Below, in pieces: positions 9,134-22,367 of a DNA stretch of 34,574 nt. Both the position numbers and the translations under genes were made by a program. The stretch is from NCBI GenBank assembly GCA_016933515.1, contig JAFGAV010000106.1:1-34574 (forward strand). The letters run 5' to 3'. Each line of letters begins with the position of its first letter. Positions within the stretch are counted from its first letter, which is position 1. Source of the stretch: Candidatus Aminicenantota bacterium. GTDB taxonomy: Bacteria; Acidobacteriota; Aminicenantia; Aminicenantales; JAFGAV01. The notes beneath the pieces are model-generated. The model worked only from the letters and a program-made list of their open reading frames with translations. It was not told the DNA's origin and did no database searches.

Positions 9134-9716
9134 TTCCCGTCCCTCCGCAGATCAGAGCGATGGCTTCCGTGCGCGTGAGGCTTGAGGCGCGGAAGGAGCC
9201 GCGGACGGCGGACGTCACCGTCAACGACTTGGGCTTTTTGACCCCCCGCATGGACATGCACATATGCTCGGCTTCGATGATGACCATGACCCCCAGCGGC
9301 CGGAGGTTGTCCATGATCAGATCCGCAATCTGTTTGGTCAGGCGCTCCTGAATCTGGAGCCGCCGGCTGAGCGTGTCCACCACCCGGGCGATCTTGCTCA
9401 GCCCCACGATCCGGCCGCCGCTGGGGATGTAGGCGACATGGGCCACGCCGGCGAAGGGCAGGAGGTGATGCTCGCACATGGAATAAAGGGGGATGTTCTT
9501 GATGAGCACCATCTCGTCGTGTTTTTCACTGTGAATGACGGTCAGGTGACGGGCCGGGTCCTCGAGCCCCCCGCCGAGGATTTCGCGGAACATTCGGGCC
9601 ACGCGTCGGGGCGTTTCGCGAAGCCCCGCGCGCCGCGTGCCCTCGCCCACTCCGTCCAGAATGAGACGAACTCCTTTTTCGATTTTTACAAGGTCCATCT
9701 TTTTCCGGGGGCTCAT
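9117..9716 (-). CDS. folE: GTP cyclohydrolase I
   Basis: [76 protein letters not shown]. Confidence 0.95.
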
Positions 9717-10897
9717 GGGCGACTCGGCTTTCCTTTCCAGTAACGTTCCGCCGCCAGCCGCTGAATCTCTTTCAGGGGCCGGCCTGATTTCCGCGCCGCC
9801 CGAAGGCAGTCCGAAAACTCCGGCTGAGCGTTCACCGGCGTCTCCCGGAAGCGGGACACCTTGATCCCGATCCGCTCTCCGGCCACATGAACCCCGGAGG
9901 AAGCGCGGTCCAACACGCGCCTTTCCACGGGGTAATAGCGGACGCCGATCGAAGTCGTCTCTCGGAACACCCCGGCGACGAGGTCATCTATTCTATCAGC
10001 CTCGGCCAGGAGCGTCAATTTGGTCGCCAGACGGCCTTTTTTCATCACGATCGGAGTCAGCGCGGCGTCTAGGGCCCCCTGTTCCAGGGCGGTGTCAAGG
10101 AACGCGGCCAAGACCTGGGGAGTGGAATCGTCGATATGGGCCTCAACGACAAACAGGCGCTTTTCCGGCCGGAAAACGTCCTCCCGGCCGTAAAAAGCGC
10201 GCAGGACATTGGAGAAACCGGGGATGTCCCTGGATCCGGCCCCGTAACCGATGCGGTCGTAACACAGCTCGGGCAGCGCGGTGAAGGATTCCGCCAGCAC
10301 GGAGGCCAGGGCGGCGCCGGTGGGCGTCACGAGCTCCGTTTCGGCCCAGGCCGCATAAACGGGCGCGCCTTTCAGCAGCTCGGCCACGGCGGGCGGCGGA
10401 ACAGGAAGGACTCCGTGCGCGGCCTTGACCCAGCCCGAGCCCACGTTGAGCGGGGAGATATAAACCTTGCGGATGTTCAGGACGTCGAGCAAATGACAGG
10501 CGCCCACAATATCGACCAGGGCGTCGTCGGCGCCCGCCTCGTGGAGATGGGTGTTTTTGAAAGTATGGCCGTGCACTTTGGCCTCGGCTTTGAACAGGGC
10601 GTTGAAAACGGCGAGCGCCCGCTCCCGGATCGGCGCCGGGAATCCGCTTTTTTTGATCAGAGCGGAAATGTCCTCGAACCGCCGGGCAGGGGATCCTTTG
10701 TCCCGGACATGGACGTCCACCTTCAGGGCGCCGAGGGCCCCCCTCCGGACACGGCGCGCGCGGATCTCAACGGGGAGCCGGAGCCGGGCCATGTCTTTTT
10801 TGAAGGCGGCGGGGGAAACGCCCAGGTCGAGAAGAGCGCCCAGAATCATGTCGCCGCTCAAGCCGGCCGATCCGTCAAGGTAAAGGTAATGCATCAA
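9713..10897 (-). CDS. larC: Nickel-pincer cofactor biosynthesis protein LarC (DUF111) family
   Basis: [71 protein letters not shown]. Stop overlaps the folE ATG. Confidence 0.88.
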
Positions 10898-13727: not shown

Positions 13728-13746
13728 AAAAGGAGAACGGTCGGCC

Positions 13747-15117
13747 ATGAACATTCCCGTGGAACCCTATCGCATCAAAGTCGTGGAAAGCCTCCGGCGC
13801 ATCCCGCGCCGGGAACGCGAGGCCGTCTTGCGCAAGGCCGGGTACAACGTCTTCAACATCCCCGCTGAAAAAGTGTTCATCGACCTCCTGACCGATTCCG
13901 GAACCTCGGCCATGAGCGACAGGCAGTGGGCGGGATTGATGGTCGGCGACGAATCCTACGCCGGCGCCAGGAGCTTTTTCAACCTGGAAAGGACCGTCCG
14001 GCGCGTCTTCGGTTTCAAGCATGTGATCCCCACCCACCAGGGCCGGGCGGCGGAGAGGATCCTGTTCCAGGCCCTGGTTCACAAAGGAGACACGGTCCCG
14101 AACAACATTCATTTCGACACCACGCGGGCCAACGTCGAGGTCTTGGGCGCCGAGGCGCTCGACCTTGCGGCCCGGGAGGCTTACGACCCGGACGACGAAC
14201 TGCCCTTCAAGGGCAACATGGATGTCGGGCGTCTGGAGGACGCCATCAAACGCCGGGGAAGGAAGCGCATCCCCCTGGTCATGATGACCGTAACCAACAA
14301 TTCCGGCGGCGGGCAGCCGGTGTCTCTGGACAACATCCGGCGGGTCCGCGCGGTCTGCCGGAAGCACAAAATCCCGTTTTTCTTGGACGCCTGCCGCTTC
14401 GCGGAGAACGCCTATTTTATCCGGGAGCGCGAGAAGGGATGCGCCCGCACGTCCGTGGCTGAAATCGCCCGCGAGGCCTTCTCCCTTGCCGACGGGGCGA
14501 CGATGAGCGCCAAGAAGGACGCCCTGGTCAATATCGGCGGTTTCATCGCTCTCAATGACGACCGCCTGGCAGGCCGCCTGAAGGAGCTGCTCATCATCGG
14601 CGAGGGTTTTCCCACCTACGGGGGGCTGGCCGGCCGCGACCTGGAAGCCATGGCCCGCGGGCTGGAAGAGGTCCTGGAGCCGGACTATCTCGAGCACCGC
14701 ATCGGCCAGGTCCGCTACCTGGCCGCCCTCCTGGAGAAGGAACGCATCCCCTATTTCAAGCCCTGCGGCGGGCACGCCGTTTACATCCTGGCCGACCGCT
14801 TCCTGCCCCATCTTCCCAGGAACCGCTACCCGGCCTGGGCCTTGACGACGGCCCTCTACCGGGAGGCCGGGGTCCGGGCCGTGGAAATCGGCGGCGTGAT
14901 GTTCGGGCGGAAAGACAAAGGCGGTCGGGAAGTCTATCCCGCCCTGGAGCTCGTCCGGCTGTGCGTACCACGCCGGGTTTATACCGTTTCCCATCTTCAA
15001 TATGTGGCCGAGGCGCTGGCCGAACTGTATAAGCGAAGGGAAAAGATCCGAGGTCTCAGAATCGTCTCTCAATCCCCGTATTTGAGACATTTTACGGCCA
15101 GATTCGAAGAAGTGTAG
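13747..15117 (+). CDS. Tryptophanase / tyrosine phenol-lyase family (beta-eliminating lyase), probably tryptophanase
   Basis: IDLLTDSGTSAMSDRQWAGLMVGDESYAGARSFFNLERTVRRVFGFKHVIPTHQGRAAE, TMSAKKDALVNIGGFIALNDD (PLP lysine region), C-terminal LRHFTARFEEV. Confidence 0.9.
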   Translation: MNIPVEPYRIKVVESLRRIPRREREAVLRKAGYNVFNIPAEKVFIDLLTDSGTSAMSDRQWAGLMVGDESYAGARSFFNLERTVRRVFGFKHVIPTHQGRAAERILFQALVHKGDTVPNNIHFDTTRANVEVLGAEALDLAAREAYDPDDELPFKGNMDVGRLEDAIKRRGRKRIPLVMMTVTNNSGGGQPVSLDNIRRVRAVCRKHKIPFFLDACRFAENAYFIREREKGCARTSVAEIAREAFSLADGATMSAKKDALVNIGGFIALNDDRLAGRLKELLIIGEGFPTYGGLAGRDLEAMARGLEEVLEPDYLEHRIGQVRYLAALLEKERIPYFKPCGGHAVYILADRFLPHLPRNRYPAWALTTALYREAGVRAVEIGGVMFGRKDKGGREVYPALELVRLCVPRRVYTVSHLQYVAEALAELYKRREKIRGLRIVSQSPYLRHFTARFEEV

Positions 15118-15163: not shown

Positions 15164-15193
15164 TTGACCGAATACGTCTTTTTGCGATAAAAT
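15164..15193 (+). promoter_or_regulatory. Putative sigma70 promoter TTGACC-N18-TAAAAT for the radical SAM cassette
   Basis: Both hexamers match consensus at 5 of 6 positions. Lies downstream of the tryptophanase stop and upstream of the PqqD-like gene. Confidence 0.6.
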
Positions 15194-15290
15194 ATTTCAC
15201 CAAGGAACGGCTTCCGGGAAGAAAGAAGCGCCTTTTTGTTCTATGAAATCGTCAGATAGGGAAAAGTGTTTTATAAGGAGACGAGAAAGA

Positions 15291-15575
15291 ATGTCAGCCG
15301 ATAAACCTGTAGCCAATCCGCAGGTGGTCCTCAGGGAGGAATTTGACGACTGGGCCGTGCTGTTCGACCCGGATACGGCTGAAGGTTTCGCCGTCAATCC
15401 CGTGGGAGTCCTGATCTGGAAAGAACTCGACGGAAACCACGACATCGCCGACATCGTGCGCGTCGTCCGGGAGAAGTGTGAAAACGTCCCTGAGGACGTT
15501 GAAACACACTGCCGGGAATTCGTCGACAGCCTGATCCGAAAGGGGCTGGTTGGGACGGAAGTCACCCATGATTGA
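15291..15575 (+). CDS. PqqD-like protein (RiPP recognition element); ScmD-like
   Basis: FDDWAVLFDPDTAEGFAVNPVGVLIWKELDGNHDIADIVRVVREKCENVPEDVETHCREFVDSLIRKGLV, the PqqD fold pattern. AAGGAG lies 10 nt upstream of the ATG at 15291; an in-frame ATG at 15243 is an alternative. Confidence 0.85.
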   Translation: MSADKPVANPQVVLREEFDDWAVLFDPDTAEGFAVNPVGVLIWKELDGNHDIADIVRVVREKCENVPEDVETHCREFVDSLIRKGLVGTEVTHD

Positions 15576-16707
15576 GGCCGGGCCGCAAGAACGTGCGCGG
15601 CTGATGCGCACTCCGCAGTCCGTGGACATCGACATCACGGATCGATGCAATCTCCGATGCAAATACTGTTATTTCTACACCAGCCCGGCCGACGTCAAAA
15701 CCGATCTGCCGCTCGAGGAGTGGCTCCGTTTTTTCGAGGAGCTCAATCGCTGCGCGGTGACCGAGGTCACCCTGGCCGGAGGGGAGCCGTTCATCCGGGA
15801 GGATCTGAAGGAGATCCTGGAGGGCGTCATCCGCAACCGCATGCGATTCAGCATTCTGTCGAACGGAACGCTCATCACCGAGGATATGGCCCGCTTTCTC
15901 GGCTCGACGCCCCGGTGCAACTACGTCCAGGTTTCGCTCGACGGTTCGGAGCCCGAGACCCACGACTCCTGCCGGGGGAAGGGGACGTTCGAGAAGGCCG
16001 TCGCCGGCCTTCGCCTCCTCCAGAAGCATAAGGTCAACGTCGCCGTGCGCGTGACCATACACCGCTACAACGTCCGCGACTTGGAGGCCACCGCCCGTTT
16101 TCTTCTCGAGGATTTGGGGCTCAGCGGTTTCGGGACGAACTCGGCGGGCCACATGGGGCTCTGCCAGAAGAACATGGAGCAAGTCGAGCTCACCACCGCG
16201 GAAAGGGAACTGGCCATGAAGACCCTTCTGGCCCTCAACAAGAAATACGGCGGCCGGATCAGCGCCTCGGCCGGTCCTCTGGCCGAAGGCCGGATGTGGT
16301 CCAGGATGGAGCGGGCGCGCCGCCAGGGGGCGGCCGCGTTTCCCGAAGGCGGCCGGCTCACCGGCTGCGGCTGTCCTTTCAGCAAAATTTCCGTGCGGAC
16401 CGACGGGGTCATCGTCCCCTGCAACATGCTCAGCCACATCGAACTGGGACGCATCAACCGCGACCGCCTGGATGACGTCTGGCGGAACCACTCCGAGCTG
16501 TGGAAGATGCGGGATCGGCGGTCCATACCGCTCAGCCGTTTTGAATTCTGCCGCGGTTGCCCTTACCTCGACTACTGCACCGGAAATTGCCCGGCTCTTG
16601 CTTATTCCCTCCTGGGCGTGGTCGACCATCCCAGCCCCGACGGCTGCCTGAGAAAGTTTTTAGACGAAGGAGGACATCTTCCCGAGGAGGAGCTTCTTGA
16701 GCCCTGA
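15568..16707 (+). CDS. Radical SAM/SPASM domain protein (first); ScmE-like
   Basis: DRCNLRCKYCYF (CxxxCxxC), VTLAGGEPFIREDL, SLDGSEPETHD, SPASM Cys set (TGCGCPF..VPCNM..FCRGCPYLDYCTGNCPA..GCLRK). Overlaps the PqqD-like stop by 8 nt. Confidence 0.92.
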   Translation: MIEAGPQERARLMRTPQSVDIDITDRCNLRCKYCYFYTSPADVKTDLPLEEWLRFFEELNRCAVTEVTLAGGEPFIREDLKEILEGVIRNRMRFSILSNGTLITEDMARFLGSTPRCNYVQVSLDGSEPETHDSCRGKGTFEKAVAGLRLLQKHKVNVAVRVTIHRYNVRDLEATARFLLEDLGLSGFGTNSAGHMGLCQKNMEQVELTTAERELAMKTLLALNKKYGGRISASAGPLAEGRMWSRMERARRQGAAAFPEGGRLTGCGCPFSKISVRTDGVIVPCNMLSHIELGRINRDRLDDVWRNHSELWKMRDRRSIPLSRFEFCRGCPYLDYCTGNCPALAYSLLGVVDHPSPDGCLRKFLDEGGHLPEEELLEP

Positions 16708-17821
16708 CCGACCGGCATCCGGCCCGGAAAACGCCTCCGGCCCCGCCGTGCGGTATCCCTTGTCCCAGCTCTATTTTTATCTGACCGAGGGGTGCAACCT
16801 GGCTTGCCGCCACTGCTGGCTTGCGCCCAAGCTTCAGCAGGGCGATAAGATCTACCCTATGCTCGACGTCGGCCTTTTACCGCACATTCTCCGTCAGGCC
16901 AAACCGCTCGGGCTCCAGGGCGTCAAGCTCACGGGCGGCGAGCCGCTCATGCACCCGGAGATTCTCTCCATCCTCGAACACATCCGCGCCGAGGATCTGA
17001 ACTGCACGATGGAGACCAACGGCGTGCTGTGCACGCCGGAAATCGCCCGGGAACTGGCGCGGCAAAAAGGGCGGTTTGTTTCGGTCAGCCTGGACGGGGC
17101 CGACGCCGAGACCAACGAGTGGGTGCGCGGCGTCCCCGGCTGTTTTGACGCGGCCGTCCGAGGAATCAAGAACCTCGTCGAGACCGGCATCAGGCCTCAG
17201 ATCATTTTGACCGTGATGAAAAGGAACAGGAGCCATATCGAGCCCATCGTCAGGCTGGCCGAGAAGCTGGGGGCGGGCTCGGTGAAATTCAATGTTCTCA
17301 TGCCCACGGCCCGCGGCGAGGATCTGCACAAGCGAGGCGAGGCCCTGCCCGTCGAGGAGCTCATCGAACTGGGGCGTTTCGTGGAGAGCGATCTCTCGCG
17401 CAGGACCTCTCTCTCTCTGATCTTTCACCACCCGCCCGTTTTCAGGCCGTTGGGCCGGATGTTCGGACGGAACGGGGACGGCTGCACGCGCTGCGGCATA
17501 TTTTCCATTCTCGGCGTTTTGGCCGACGGGTCTTACGCGCTGTGCGGCATCGGCGAGACCGTTCCGGAGCTTGTATTCGGGCGGGCGGACAGGGACCGGT
17601 TGGAGGATGTTTGGAACAACAACGCCGTCCTGAACGACATCCGAACGGGACTTCCCGGAAAGCTCAAGGGCGTGTGCGGAGAATGCCTGATGAAAACACT
17701 CTGCCTGGGAAGCTGCGTGGCGCAGAACTACTACAGCACGCACGATCTCTTCTCCCCATTTTGGTTTTGCGAAGAAGCGAGGAAAAAAGGGCTGTTTCCC
17801 GAAAGCCGGCTGGCCAAATGA
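16697..17821 (+). CDS. Radical SAM/SPASM domain protein (second); ScmF-like
   Basis: TEGCNLACRHCWLAPK (CxxxCxxC), VKLTGGEPLMHPEI, SLDGADAETNEWVRG, SPASM Cys set (GCTRCGIF..YALCGIGE..VCGECLMKTLCLGSCVAQNYY..FWFCEE). TTG start at 16697 with GAGGAGG upstream, overlapping the first radical SAM gene by 11 nt. Confidence 0.9.
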   Translation: MSPDRPASGPENASGPAVRYPLSQLYFYLTEGCNLACRHCWLAPKLQQGDKIYPMLDVGLLPHILRQAKPLGLQGVKLTGGEPLMHPEILSILEHIRAEDLNCTMETNGVLCTPEIARELARQKGRFVSVSLDGADAETNEWVRGVPGCFDAAVRGIKNLVETGIRPQIILTVMKRNRSHIEPIVRLAEKLGAGSVKFNVLMPTARGEDLHKRGEALPVEELIELGRFVESDLSRRTSLSLIFHHPPVFRPLGRMFGRNGDGCTRCGIFSILGVLADGSYALCGIGETVPELVFGRADRDRLEDVWNNNAVLNDIRTGLPGKLKGVCGECLMKTLCLGSCVAQNYYSTHDLFSPFWFCEEARKKGLFPESRLAK

Positions 17822-17845
17822 AGTTCGGACGGTGATCATTTCTCC

Positions 17846-18775
17846 ATGAGCCGGTCCGCTCCCTTTCTTGTTTTCAGGCTGAGACTCGGCCCGACCGTGT
17901 GGCGCATTGCGGCCGGGCCCGAACTCGAAGACTGGATGACGGACTTTGCCCGTATCCTGAGCCTCAAGCGCTGGACGGAGGATGATTCAGAAAGAGGAGA
18001 AGACCAGAGGACGGCGTTGTTCCTCCCCGGGCCGGATCGCTCCTCAGCCGAATTCCCCGACGGCGCTTTTTTTTTCACGGAAGGAGCCCGCCTGCCGTCC
18101 AAGGGCTGGACCGCAACCAAGCTGAACAACCTGGTCCTTTGGCGCCACGCTCTCGCGCCGGCCGTCATTGTGCAGCTCAAACCCGAGGAGACCGAGGAGA
18201 GCCGGGTAGCGGCCATGAGCGAAGCCTGCCTTCCGTTCTATTTCCGGGTGATCGAGACGGGAGGCCTGCCGTTGCACGCGGCGGTTCTCGCCCGGAAAGA
18301 CAAAGCCGTGGCTCTGGCCGCCTCGGGAGGAACGGGCAAATCCACATGCGCGCGAAGGGCCCCGCATCCTTGGCGCGCGCTGGGGGACGACCTGGCCGTC
18401 GTCACCCGGGCGGATGCCGGCGGCTCATTCTTTTCGGTCAACCCTTTTCCCACCTGGAGCAATTTTTTTTTCAAGCGCGGCGGAGGAGCCTGGAGGGTCG
18501 AGGAGCGCTTGCCCCTGAGCGCGATTTTTTTTCTGGCCCAGTCAAAGGAGGACAACATCCTCCGCCTGGGCCAGGGAGAGGCGGCCGTCAATCTCGCCCG
18601 TTCGGGTCATCAAATCTTGTTCGGGCTGACGCGCAAACTGCCTCTCCCGGAATTGCGAAGTTTGTGGACGGAAATTTTCGACAACGCCTGCCGAATGGTC
18701 CGGCGGTTCCCGGTCTTTCTTTTAGAAACATCCCTGACCGGCTCTTTCTGGAAAAAGATCGAACGCGTGATTTGA
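17846..18775 (+). CDS. HPr-kinase-like P-loop protein; ScmC-like
   Basis: GGLPLHAAVLARKDKAVALAASGGTGKSTCARR (Walker A) followed by ALGDDLAVV, as in HprK-related proteins of peptide-modification clusters. Starts 24 nt after the second radical SAM gene. Confidence 0.75.
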   Translation: MSRSAPFLVFRLRLGPTVWRIAAGPELEDWMTDFARILSLKRWTEDDSERGEDQRTALFLPGPDRSSAEFPDGAFFFTEGARLPSKGWTATKLNNLVLWRHALAPAVIVQLKPEETEESRVAAMSEACLPFYFRVIETGGLPLHAAVLARKDKAVALAASGGTGKSTCARRAPHPWRALGDDLAVVTRADAGGSFFSVNPFPTWSNFFFKRGGGAWRVEERLPLSAIFFLAQSKEDNILRLGQGEAAVNLARSGHQILFGLTRKLPLPELRSLWTEIFDNACRMVRRFPVFLLETSLTGSFWKKIERVI

Positions 18776-18913: not shown

Positions 18914-20509
18914 TCAGCGGACGGATGAGTCGAAGGCCGCGCTTGCCGATTCGCGAAATTTCAGGAGATAAAAGAAATATTCTTCTCCCGCGACGATGGC
19001 CGGGGGAGTGCGTCCGAGCCTGATCAGATTCTTGCGATCGGGCGCGGCTTTTTCAAGCAGGGGCAGAGACAGAATGATCAGACAGTCTTTTTTGTGGAGC
19101 CGGCAGAGCCGCTCGGCGTCCGCCAACACATCCTCCACGGTCACGCCCCAGGGGCGCCTCGACGCCGAGAAAGAGAATGTCCCGAGGCCTCCCTGGGAGA
19201 CATAGTGCAGCGGCCGGTTGAGATATCCGGCCACCGGGACGCAGGGCCCTTGCATGTGCGCCACGATGGGCAGGCCGTCGAAGCCCTTGCGCCGGATGTA
19301 GCGGGCCGTGTTCCTCGCCTGGGAGAATTGGTGGCTGAAGTCCATGGCATAGGCGAACACGCCGGCCAGGAAGTGAGAGAAAAGAACGACGGACAGCCCG
19401 GCCCTCAAGAATCGGGAGCCGGAAATCCCGGCCCGCACCGGCGGGGAGGCGGCTGGACGGCCCGGAGCCGCTCCGGCCATCCAGAGCGCGGCGACGAAAG
19501 CAATGAACAAATGTCCGTAGTGGCGCGTGAAGCCGATGTAGCCCACGTAAAACCAGAGAAAAAACACCGCCCCGGACAAAAGAAAAAACAGAAGGGCCGG
19601 GCGCGACCGGCGAAGCAGGGCGATTGAGGCGGCGAGGATCGCGAGGCAGAGAAGGACTTCCACGGTCCTGGCGGCGGGGAGGTGGTCCAGGGCCGGATGG
19701 TTCCAGAAGTTCAGGATCGGAAGGGGAAGGGGCAGAAACGCCCTGGGAACCAGAATCAGAACATCGACCAGCAGCCCGGAGTTGAACGTCGTATGGAACG
19801 GAGTGGCCCTTTCGTAGCCCGAGGTGGGAAGGGGCTTCAATTGATAGAGGCATAGGGCCAGCCCCAGGCCGATGATCAGCAGGGCGACCCAGAATTTCGG
19901 TTTCCGGCGGAGTTCCTCCCCGGCCAGGACCTCGACGAGCAGAACGCCCCCCGCGGCTCCGGCCAGGATGAGTCCGTAAACACTCGTGTTGGCCAGGAGA
20001 AAGAGACATGCCGCCGCCGGGAGAGGCTTCCGGCGGAACCGGGGGAACAACGCGCAGAACGCGAAGAGGGAAAGAACTCCGAGTCCGTAATTCCTGCTGA
20101 TCAGGGCGTATTCATACAAGAAGTAATATCCGAATCCCAAGAAAATCTTTTGATAGATCTTGAACGGCGCATAGGCGAAAAGAAGAAACGCCGAGAGCGT
20201 CGCGATGGCCAGATGAAGAATCTGCATGGCGACCGGGCTTGAGGACAGCAGGCTCACGCCTTTCAGGGCCAGGTACCAGGTCACGGGGTGCTTCTGATGA
20301 AGGGCCACTGTCCAGAGCCGGTCCAGGGAAACAGTGTCTTTGCTGACAAGCCAGGCCTGCATTTCGTCCCGCCAGATCTCGTGGCGGAGGATCCCGACGA
20401 GCCCGATGATGAAGAAGGCGGCGGTCAGGAGGAGCGCCGTGCGGACTTGAGGTTTCCTTTCCAAACCGGTTTTCGCCGCGCCGGAGACGCCGCTGGGATT
20501 CTCAGGCAC
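18914..20509 (-). CDS. Polytopic membrane protein, GT-C type glycosyltransferase-like
   Basis: Multiple hydrophobic segments and HEIWRDEMQAWLVSKD near the first TM segment, resembling GT39/83-type proteins. Confidence 0.6.
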   Translation of the reverse strand: MPENPSGVSGAAKTGLERKPQVRTALLLTAAFFIIGLVGILRHEIWRDEMQAWLVSKDTVSLDRLWTVALHQKHPVTWYLALKGVSLLSSSPVAMQILHLAIATLSAFLLFAYAPFKIYQKIFLGFGYYFLYEYALISRNYGLGVLSLFAFCALFPRFRRKPLPAAACLFLLANTSVYGLILAGAAGGVLLVEVLAGEELRRKPKFWVALLIIGLGLALCLYQLKPLPTSGYERATPFHTTFNSGLLVDVLILVPRAFLPLPLPILNFWNHPALDHLPAARTVEVLLCLAILAASIALLRRSRPALLFFLLSGAVFFLWFYVGYIGFTRHYGHLFIAFVAALWMAGAAPGRPAASPPVRAGISGSRFLRAGLSVVLFSHFLAGVFAYAMDFSHQFSQARNTARYIRRKGFDGLPIVAHMQGPCVPVAGYLNRPLHYVSQGGLGTFSFSASRRPWGVTVEDVLADAERLCRLHKKDCLIILSLPLLEKAAPDRKNLIRLGRTPPAIVAGEEYFFYLLKFRESASAAFDSSVR

Positions 20510-22367
20510 GGCTCTCTCTCTTCCGGCGCGCAGGAATGGCGCGGCGCTTGGTCGTCTTTTTGACTTCCGTCAAGCCCTTGGCCTTGAACTCGAACACACG
20601 GTCGGCGATATCGAGCAGGGGCAGACGGTGGGTGATGAGGATCGTCGTCCGGCCGCGGGTGATGAGCCTGAGCGCTTCGCCCAGGCTCTTTTCCGTGCGG
20701 CGGTCGAGAGCGGACGTCGGTTCGTCCAGAATGAGAATGGCGGGATTTTTCAGAAAGGCGCGCGCCAGGGAAATCCTCTGCTTCTGCCCTATGCTCAGCC
20801 GCGCCCCCCGTTCGCCGACCGGAGTGTGATATCCCCGCTCCATGCGGAGAATGTCCTCGTGGATTTGGGCCTTCCGGGCGGCGTCCTCGACCTCGGCGAA
20901 GCCGGCGTCCGGACGTCCGTACTTGATGTTGTTCTCCAAAGTGTCGTTGAAAAGAAATGTCTCCTGGGACACGATCGCCGTCCGGGAGCGGAGCCATTCC
21001 GTGTCGAGACGCTCCAGGTCCCGGCCGTCGAGCACGATCTTTCCCCTCTGAGGCCGGTAGAATTTCAGCACGAGGCTGATGAGGGTCGTCTTGCCGATGC
21101 CGCTGGCGCCCATGACGGCGATTTTCTCGCCGGGACGAATGTCGAGGGAGACGTTTTTCAGCACCGGCGGGCCGTTTGGGTAGGCGAAACCCACATTCCG
21201 GAACTGAAGTCGGCCGTGGATGCCGGGCGGACTCAAAAGACCGGCGGATTGGCCCCGCTCGGAAATCTCGGGAGCGATCGAGAACATCTCGTGCAGCCGT
21301 CCCATGGACAGAAAGAGATATTGGAGGGACAGGACTTGGTTGAAAATGCCCCCCAGTTGTCCCGTGAGCTGAAGGGAGTAAAGGGTGAAGGATGTCAGAT
21401 CGCCGATGCTCATCGCTCCGCGCAAAACCTCCCGGCCGCACAGCCAGGTGATGAGCAGACGGCTTCCCAAATTAAGCGCCTGAAGGACGTATCCGGCGAA
21501 TGATGAAAGAAGAAGTCCCTGGAGCTGAAGCTCGATCACCTCCCGCATCTTGCCCGAAACCTTGGTCTTTTCCCGATCTTCGGCGCCGTAGGATTTTACG
21601 ACTTCAATGCCGGCCAGGGCCTGCTGGATGTCGCCGCTGATGTCGGCGTTTTTTTCCATCTGACGGTAGCTCAGGGACCTCGTCCGGACCATGACCAGGT
21701 AATTGATGAGGACGTTGACGGGGACGATGGCCAGGACGAGAAACGTCATGCGTCGGTTGAGGTGAAAAAGGATGAAAAAGCTGAAAATCGGCGTCAGAAG
21801 CGTGCGGGCGAATTGAAAGAGATACTGGGAGAAAAAAGACTGAACGGCGGACACGTCGCCGGTCAGCCGGGACATGAGATAACCTGTCTGCTTCTCCTTA
21901 AATATCGACAGGGGGTAGCGCAGGATGCGGTCGAAAAGCTCGGTCTGGACTTTGAACGTCACTCCGGTGTTGAAATGAAAATTGACCACGCTCTGGAGAA
22001 TGGACAGAATGCCCATGAGGAGACCGATCACGAGCCCGGCGATGACGACCAGGTTCAGGGAGCCCAGGATCTTTTCGACAAAGGGGCTCAAGCCCTGGAG
22101 GCCGAGAGAGCTCAGGATGGATAGGATGTCCGCCGCATCCTTTTTCTGGAGGACGTTGTCGATCAGGACCTTGCCTCCCAGGGGGGAGATCGAACTGATG
22201 CCGGCCGAGACGAGCATGAGCAGAAAGCCCGCCAGCGCCGGTTTCCAGAAGGGTTTGACGAACCGGACGTAGAACAGCATGTCCTTGAGCTTGAAATGAA
22301 CCTTGACCGGCTCGGGGCGCTTGAGCGTGACCAGGAAATACTCGCGGAAAAACTTTTTGAGGTTCAC
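20502..22367 (-). CDS. ABC transporter, fused permease and ATP-binding protein (MsbA/exporter type)
   Basis: N-terminal six-TM-type domain, GASGIGKTTLISL (Walker A), LSIGQKQRISLARAFLKNPAILILDEPTSALD, LITHRLPLLD. Confidence 0.93.
   Translation of the reverse strand: MNLKKFFREYFLVTLKRPEPVKVHFKLKDMLFYVRFVKPFWKPALAGFLLMLVSAGISSISPLGGKVLIDNVLQKKDAADILSILSSLGLQGLSPFVEKILGSLNLVVIAGLVIGLLMGILSILQSVVNFHFNTGVTFKVQTELFDRILRYPLSIFKEKQTGYLMSRLTGDVSAVQSFFSQYLFQFARTLLTPIFSFFILFHLNRRMTFLVLAIVPVNVLINYLVMVRTRSLSYRQMEKNADISGDIQQALAGIEVVKSYGAEDREKTKVSGKMREVIELQLQGLLLSSFAGYVLQALNLGSRLLITWLCGREVLRGAMSIGDLTSFTLYSLQLTGQLGGIFNQVLSLQYLFLSMGRLHEMFSIAPEISERGQSAGLLSPPGIHGRLQFRNVGFAYPNGPPVLKNVSLDIRPGEKIAVMGASGIGKTTLISLVLKFYRPQRGKIVLDGRDLERLDTEWLRSRTAIVSQETFLFNDTLENNIKYGRPDAGFAEVEDAARKAQIHEDILRMERGYHTPVGERGARLSIGQKQRISLARAFLKNPAILILDEPTSALDRRTEKSLGEALRLITRGRTTILITHRLPLLDIADRVFEFKAKGLTEVKKTTKRRAIPARRKRESRA

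Follow-up and report, generated by a model that had tools for sequence, protein, structure and literature searches.

A SynChlorMet cassette from a Candidatus Aminicenantota genome as the probable modification core of a peptide pathway with a candidate ScmA-type precursor on another contig

We analysed a stretch of 34,574 nucleotides (nt) from Candidatus Aminicenantota bacterium (contig JAFGAV010000106.1 of assembly GCA_016933515.1), hereafter called the window, which is the whole of contig C98 in an assembly of 2.37 Mb and 123 contigs. Four contiguous genes on one strand of the window (15291-18775) were confirmed as ScmD, ScmE, ScmF and ScmC of the SynChlorMet (SCM) cassette, an uncharacterised cassette named by NCBI. 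These genes are probably the modification core of a pathway for a ribosomally synthesised and post-translationally modified peptide (RiPP) and would act on a precursor of the ScmA type. The identities and linkage of the genes, the precursor family and the conserved active-site residues were observed directly.

Identity and linkage of the cassette genes

The four genes of the cassette are the following:
15291-15575, plus strand: ScmD, PqqD-like RiPP recognition element (RRE, leader-binding); TIGR04248, relative of LppB, start as in the L041 genome
15568-16707, plus strand: ScmE, radical S-adenosylmethionine (SAM)/SPASM enzyme; TIGR04250, CX3CX2C and seven invariant SPASM Cys
16697-17821 (TTG start), plus strand: ScmF, second, divergent radical SAM/SPASM enzyme; TIGR04251, CX3CX2C and seven SPASM Cys
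17846-18775, plus strand: ScmC, P-loop protein of the HprK/phosphoenolpyruvate carboxykinase (PEPCK) fold, probable peptide Ser kinase; TIGR04249, active-site residues and AlphaFold model

The family cut-offs were those of the curated NCBIfam equivalog models, and all four proteins exceeded them: ScmD scored 117.5 bits against TIGR04248 (cut-off 100), ScmE 610 bits against TIGR04250 (cut-off 400), ScmF 577.5 bits against TIGR04251 (cut-off 400) and ScmC 207 bits against TIGR04249 (cut-off 125). A sequence-only reading of the window, which had named the SynChlorMet families and suggested these models as a check, was therefore correct for each gene. PqqD, Radical_SAM and SPASM domains were also found in the cassette proteins with Pfam. 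The arrangement described in that reading, four same-strand genes, two of them with overlapping starts and stops, is present in the order given, and both overlaps are real: the ATG of ScmE falls within the 3' end of ScmD, and the TTG start of ScmF overlaps the end of ScmE by 11 nt. The latter overlap is the same in L041, a Candidatus Aminicenantes genome that is the closest cassette relative (ScmE 85% identical to that of the window). An alternative in-frame ATG for ScmD lies upstream at 15243, the start in L041 being equivalent to 15291.

A total of 86 ScmE loci was gathered by one scan of GTDB genomes and from relatives, and linkage was counted in the 34 loci having at least 4.5 kb on each side of ScmE. 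ScmF was present in 33 of these, ScmD in 32, an ScmA-type gene in 31 and ScmC in 30, whereas the accessory genes were found in 26 (S26 protease), 24 (exporter) and 20 (nucleoside triphosphate (NTP) transferase). In the usual arrangement ScmD-ScmE-ScmF-ScmA-ScmC is followed by the genes of an S26-type protease, of an MsbA-like exporter and of an NTP_transf_5 protein. The comparison of neighbourhoods proposed in the sequence-only reading thus showed strong co-location of the homologues and not the scattering that would have spoken against it. Among the S26 proteins, of which SEC11 is the nearest relative, the SM, HR and GDNN...D motifs are kept. The pair ScmA-ScmC occurs three times in a row in L045, and two copies of each gene were found in L054 and L115; this joint duplication ties ScmC to the precursor. 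The hosts comprise Desulfobacterota, Acidobacteriota, Nitrospirae, Chlorobi, Omnitrophota, Chloroflexi-type bacteria and methanogens, and many of them are anaerobic syntrophs, sulfate reducers, Chlorobi or methanogens.

The ScmA-type precursor family

Clustering of small genes combined with profile searches gave a family of 81 peptides, including the one from the window's own genome. In 80 of the 81 precursors a [Y/W]xxPx motif (69 with Y, 11 with W) is followed by CxxG within 45 residues, and in most of them the leader Tyr/Trp lies 17-20 residues ahead of the first CxxG. Positions -4 and -2 before the first Cys are enriched in small residues, and in 52 of 80 precursors the first CxxG is directly followed by Ser or Thr. 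Repeats further along have the pattern C-[T/S]-[A/T]-G-x-x-A and recur about every 10 residues. Altogether 433 of 533 core Cys are part of CxxG, compared to 105 expected from shuffled cores, and Cys shows the highest conservation of all core residues, its conserved partner being Gly/Ala and not a typical Asp/Thr/Asn acceptor. The cores contain from 1 to 17 Cys, and a single locus may hold up to 8 precursors. An unusually large array was seen in L075 (5493-12272), where eight ScmA-type peptides, one of which is a short fragment, are encoded together with three ScmC genes. The NCBIfam ScmA model TIGR04252 catches just 2 of 40 members (E 1e-8), and the precursor family is therefore much wider than the model.

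Precursor and partner genes in the window's genome

The canonical position of ScmA is between ScmF and ScmC, which are separated here by a gap of 24 nt. A six-frame motif scan of the window revealed no ScmA-type precursor, and TIGR04252 gave nothing near its cut-off across the genome. Profile searches, on which all genome-wide work on this assembly is based, located an ScmA-type gene on contig C14 (16313-16636, plus strand, 107 amino acids), beside an S46 peptidase. Profile A2, built without this genome, matched it with an E-value of 1.6e-4 in the core region only; the same reading frame also carries a leader, MMLKEGGGRVIKYEKPFCRRMSSLENNASCICSSG... A second, independent hidden Markov model built solely from other genomes gave 1.2e-9, the number of sequences searched being small. 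It should be underlined that a further E-value of 3.4e-12 is circular, as the profile contained the C14 sequence itself. Another profile match in the genome, on contig C13 (E 7.5e-7), was rejected, being an FHA-like protein with a chance Cys-Gly spacing.

The same assembly contains an S26 protease on contig C100 (E 2.5e-62) and an NTP transferase on contig C114 (E 7.5e-51). With these, the pathway looks complete but dispersed: the window holds ScmD, ScmE, ScmF, ScmC and the exporter, C14 the precursor, C100 the protease and C114 the NTP transferase. The sequence-only reading missed the last three because none of them sits at the cassette locus in this genome. A precursor away from the cassette was also seen in other genomes: 13 of 29 cassette genomes without a nearby precursor have one at another place (E <= 1e-6, two profile genomes left out). 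In contrast, none of 50 Acidobacteriota genomes in which ScmE gave no strong full-length hit had a precursor.

Proposed functions of the cassette proteins

With regard to leader recognition, the ScmD profile matched LppB best among the solved structures (9x8z, E 5.9e-10), followed by the lasso B1 proteins, with PqqD well behind. In L044 ScmD and an ScmA precursor form one in-frame fusion, with the precursor at the C-terminal end. The choice of Tyr or Trp in the leader displayed no clear covariation with the ScmD residue at the position of LppB D70 (E, H, D and Q occur with both). In L034 and L035 each cassette has several PqqD-type domains: one is joined to ScmE, a tandem pair sits in a single protein, and another stands alone.

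Both ScmE and ScmF have the CX3CX2C motif, and in the SPASM region of each another seven Cys are invariant among 60 homologues. Both are thus SPASM radical SAM enzymes having the Cys of the radical SAM and auxiliary clusters, as expected of sactipeptide and ranthipeptide maturases. The best solved relative of ScmE by profile is the thioether-forming SkfB, and PqqE is also among its solved relatives. Some relatives of ScmE (L034, L035) have a PqqD domain at their own N-terminus. One more Cys of the window's ScmE, Cys123 (numbered from a TTG at 15550), belongs to neither the radical SAM nor the SPASM motifs; it is invariant in 60 close homologues, and its equivalent is missing in more distant ones (alignment A1).

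ScmC retains the HprK-type His, P-loop and Asp-Asp as invariant residues (H144, GK164-165 and D181-D182). Its AlphaFold model (pLDDT, a per-residue confidence measure, of 93) matches the PEPCK fold, which is common to HprK, and ScmC is thus a probable peptide Ser kinase. In some other loci an S26 domain is joined to the N-terminus of ScmC.

In the pathway that we propose, the substrate would be an ScmA-type peptide in which a [Y/W]xxPx[L] leader precedes C-x-x-G-x-x-A repeats spaced about 10 residues apart. ScmD would hold the YxxP leader and present the peptide to ScmE and ScmF, which would modify the Cys-Gly repeats, most likely by forming one S-C thioether or similar radical crosslink per Cys. 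ScmC would phosphorylate Ser/Thr, perhaps the Ser that is enriched directly after the first CxxG. The leader would be removed by the Ser/His signal-peptidase-like (S26) protease, the MsbA-like exporter would release the product, and the NTP transferase may decorate the phosphate. Leader binding, phosphorylation and leader cleavage are well-founded extrapolations from the linear polyphosphorylated peptide (LPP) and lasso systems, because ScmD resembles LppB, the S26 proteins retain the motifs given above and ScmC retains the HprK-type residues and matches the PEPCK fold. Thioethers are a first guess at the ScmE/ScmF reaction, to which we give an even chance, since Cys is the conserved target and SkfB the best solved relative of ScmE.

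Alternative explanations

A RiPP pathway in which ScmE and ScmF form no thioethers has a chance that falls somewhat short of even. The two enzymes might instead catalyse epimerisation, methylation, the formation of C-C or C-O links or some other reaction, with the Cys being oxidised later or binding metal. SPASM enzymes catalyse diverse reactions, and the conserved Gly/Ala partner of the Cys favours this explanation, whereas the predominance of Cys among the conserved core residues and the relationship to SkfB speak for thioethers.

Several observations weigh against the proposed pathway, in particular as it would operate in this genome. The precursor on C14 is unlinked to the cassette, and its leader deviates, reading YEKPFC instead of YxxPxL. 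In the closest relative genome (G396) no precursor was seen, nor was there one upstream of the S46 peptidase. The false match on C13 means that profile matches to the core only need caution. ScmC of the window has N199 in the HPxPTWS motif, a position that is His in 98% of the homologues, L041 included. When the natural ScmD-ScmA fusion from L044 was modelled with AlphaFold, the RRE came out well and the leader stayed undocked; as the leader has low confidence and adds no strand, the model is uninformative on docking. Finally, no biochemistry of SCM proteins was found in the openly accessible literature.

Some of these points would also fit a cassette that is decaying or silent in this genome, the C14 gene being a relic or belonging to another organism in the bin. 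The unlinked precursor and N199 agree with such a situation, as do the low guanine-plus-cytosine content of the precursor gene (0.478 compared to about 0.61) and the quality of the assembly (89.8% complete, 3.5% contaminated). However, all genes are open and above cut-off, the tetranucleotide composition of C14 matches that of the window contig (r 0.984), and the S46 peptidase beside the C14 precursor is 75% identical to one in L041, the closest cassette genome. We consider such a situation unlikely.

It is distinctly unlikely that ScmE and ScmF cut and fuse precursor residues into a small redox cofactor, in the manner of pyrroloquinoline quinone (PQQ) or mycofactocin. The pairing of a PqqD-like protein with a SPASM radical SAM enzyme does resemble PqqD/PqqE, PqqE is one of the solved relatives mentioned above, and a shared cofactor is conceivable in the anaerobic syntrophs, sulfate reducers, Chlorobi and methanogens that host the cassette. 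The cores, however, are long and multi-repeat with a variable number of repeats, as many as 8 precursors may share a locus, and exporter, kinase and S26 protease suit an exported peptide; ScmD is also nearer to LppB and the lasso B1 proteins than to PqqD. Action on tetrapyrroles or another small molecule in the manner of NirJ, AhbC or AhbD, with the peptide as a bystander, is highly improbable. In its favour, the heme enzymes NirJ and AhbD are found among the second-best NCBIfam matches of ScmE/ScmF; these scores, however, are far below the cut-offs, the precursor and the PqqD-type gene are tightly linked (once fused) and RRE-ScmE fusions exist in L034 and L035.

Neighbouring features

Three further features of the window lie close to the cassette:
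15164-15193, plus strand: possible sigma-70-like promoter, TTGACC-18-TAAAAT, 10/12 consensus match
18914-20509, minus strand: multi-spanning membrane protein of 531 amino acids, convergent with the cassette; no family match
20502-22367, minus strand: MsbA-like ABC exporter, probable product exporter; Pfam ABC_membrane and ABC_tran, recurs in other loci

The 'one good promoter' of the sequence-only reading does exist as a 10/12 match, but two sites of this quality were found compared to 0.7 +/- 0.8 in shuffled sequences. Since this count is not clearly above chance, the promoter is suggestive at most. The exporter has homologues by the cassette in other loci. The 531-residue membrane protein, without match in Pfam and NCBIfam, has a homologue at the same place in L041 only, and its membership of the cassette is uncertain. 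In five other loci, multi-spanning membrane proteins of another family (LA_3751-like in L042) occur close to ScmE. A gene of the tyrosine phenol-lyase (TPL)/tryptophanase type (13744-15117, plus strand) lies directly upstream of the cassette, scoring above the cut-off of the broad subfamily but short of the cut-offs for the TnaA and TPL equivalogs; it was rejected as a general cassette gene, as it precedes the cassette in the window and L041 only. Elsewhere in the window, a nickel insertion protein (Pfam Ni_insertion; 9713-10897, minus strand) adjoins GTP cyclohydrolase I.

Significance

We suggest, at roughly even odds, that SCM cassettes constitute a RiPP class of their own. Its products would be exported peptides in which each C-x-x-G repeat receives a radical modification and which also carry a phosphate (perhaps nucleotidyl) decoration; they would be made by an LPP/lasso-like line of recognition, kinase and signal peptidase, the precursor and the enzymes being kept at separate loci in some hosts, including this one. 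Contrary to the 'undescribed' pathway of the sequence-only reading, the cassette name and even a precursor model, ScmA, are already in NCBIfam. As far as could be checked, the novelty lies in how wide the precursor family is, in the recurrence of the S26 protease and the NTP transferase, in the link to LPP and in the dispersed arrangement. SCM, so far a name with no substrate recognition, protease or chemistry assigned to it, thereby gains a precursor family, a candidate leader protease and the LPP link, and can now be tested as a pathway in bacteria and archaea that mostly live in anoxic habitats. The precursors of such cassettes are worth searching for genome-wide and not just beside the enzymes.

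Comparison with known systems

The window has the same adjacency as the SynChlorMet cassette defined by TIGR04248-TIGR04252 (ScmD, ScmC, ScmE, ScmF and ScmA, respectively), with the equivalog cut-offs exceeded. It differs in lacking ScmA, the ScmA-like gene of the genome being on another contig and unmatched by TIGR04252. In the openly accessible literature we found no use of the SCM accessions or the SynChlorMet name (Scm gene names appeared only in unrelated papers) and no RiPP paper combining signal peptidase, HPr kinase and radical SAM.

The sactipeptide and ranthipeptide maturases SkfB and PapB are likewise SPASM radical SAM enzymes acting with Cys-containing precursors. SCM differs from these systems in having two divergent radical SAM enzymes, a separate RRE and C-x-x-G-x-x-A repeats without a conserved Asp/Thr acceptor. 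Paeninodin-type phosphorylated lasso peptides share with SCM a PqqD-like B1 protein, an HprK-like kinase, an NTP transferase and a [Y/W]xxP leader, whereas SCM has radical SAM enzymes instead; neither a macrolactam cyclase (C protein) nor a B2 cysteine peptidase was among the recurrent SCM neighbours, for which no dedicated profile search was made.

But for its two radical SAM enzymes, SCM has the same gene set as the lpp clusters of Bacillota, in which the roles of kinase and protease have been shown by deletions and binding of the leader by the RRE by crystal structures; the protease there requires Ser, His and Asp (PMC13381572). Both systems have a discrete RRE, an HprK-like kinase, a Ser/His/Asp signal-peptidase-like leader peptidase, an MsbA-like exporter, an NTP transferase and a YxxP leader (PMC13381572). 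This gene set is co-located in many SCM loci and is present in full, dispersed, in the window's genome. In contrast, no radical SAM enzymes are described for lpp clusters (the word 'radical' is absent from the main text of PMC13381572), whereas SCM loci add two, which argues against an otherwise unmodified product; that of LPP is phosphorylated several times on one Ser and is otherwise linear. LPP precursors moreover have YxxPxVLxHQxIxFETxxS and not CxxG repeats, SCM leaders sharing only [Y/W]xxPx[L] with them, and SCM is found in phyla other than Bacillota. Lacking the LPP leader consensus and having radical enzymes in addition, SCM falls outside LPP as strictly defined; it would operate in the manner of LPP, with a radical step added.

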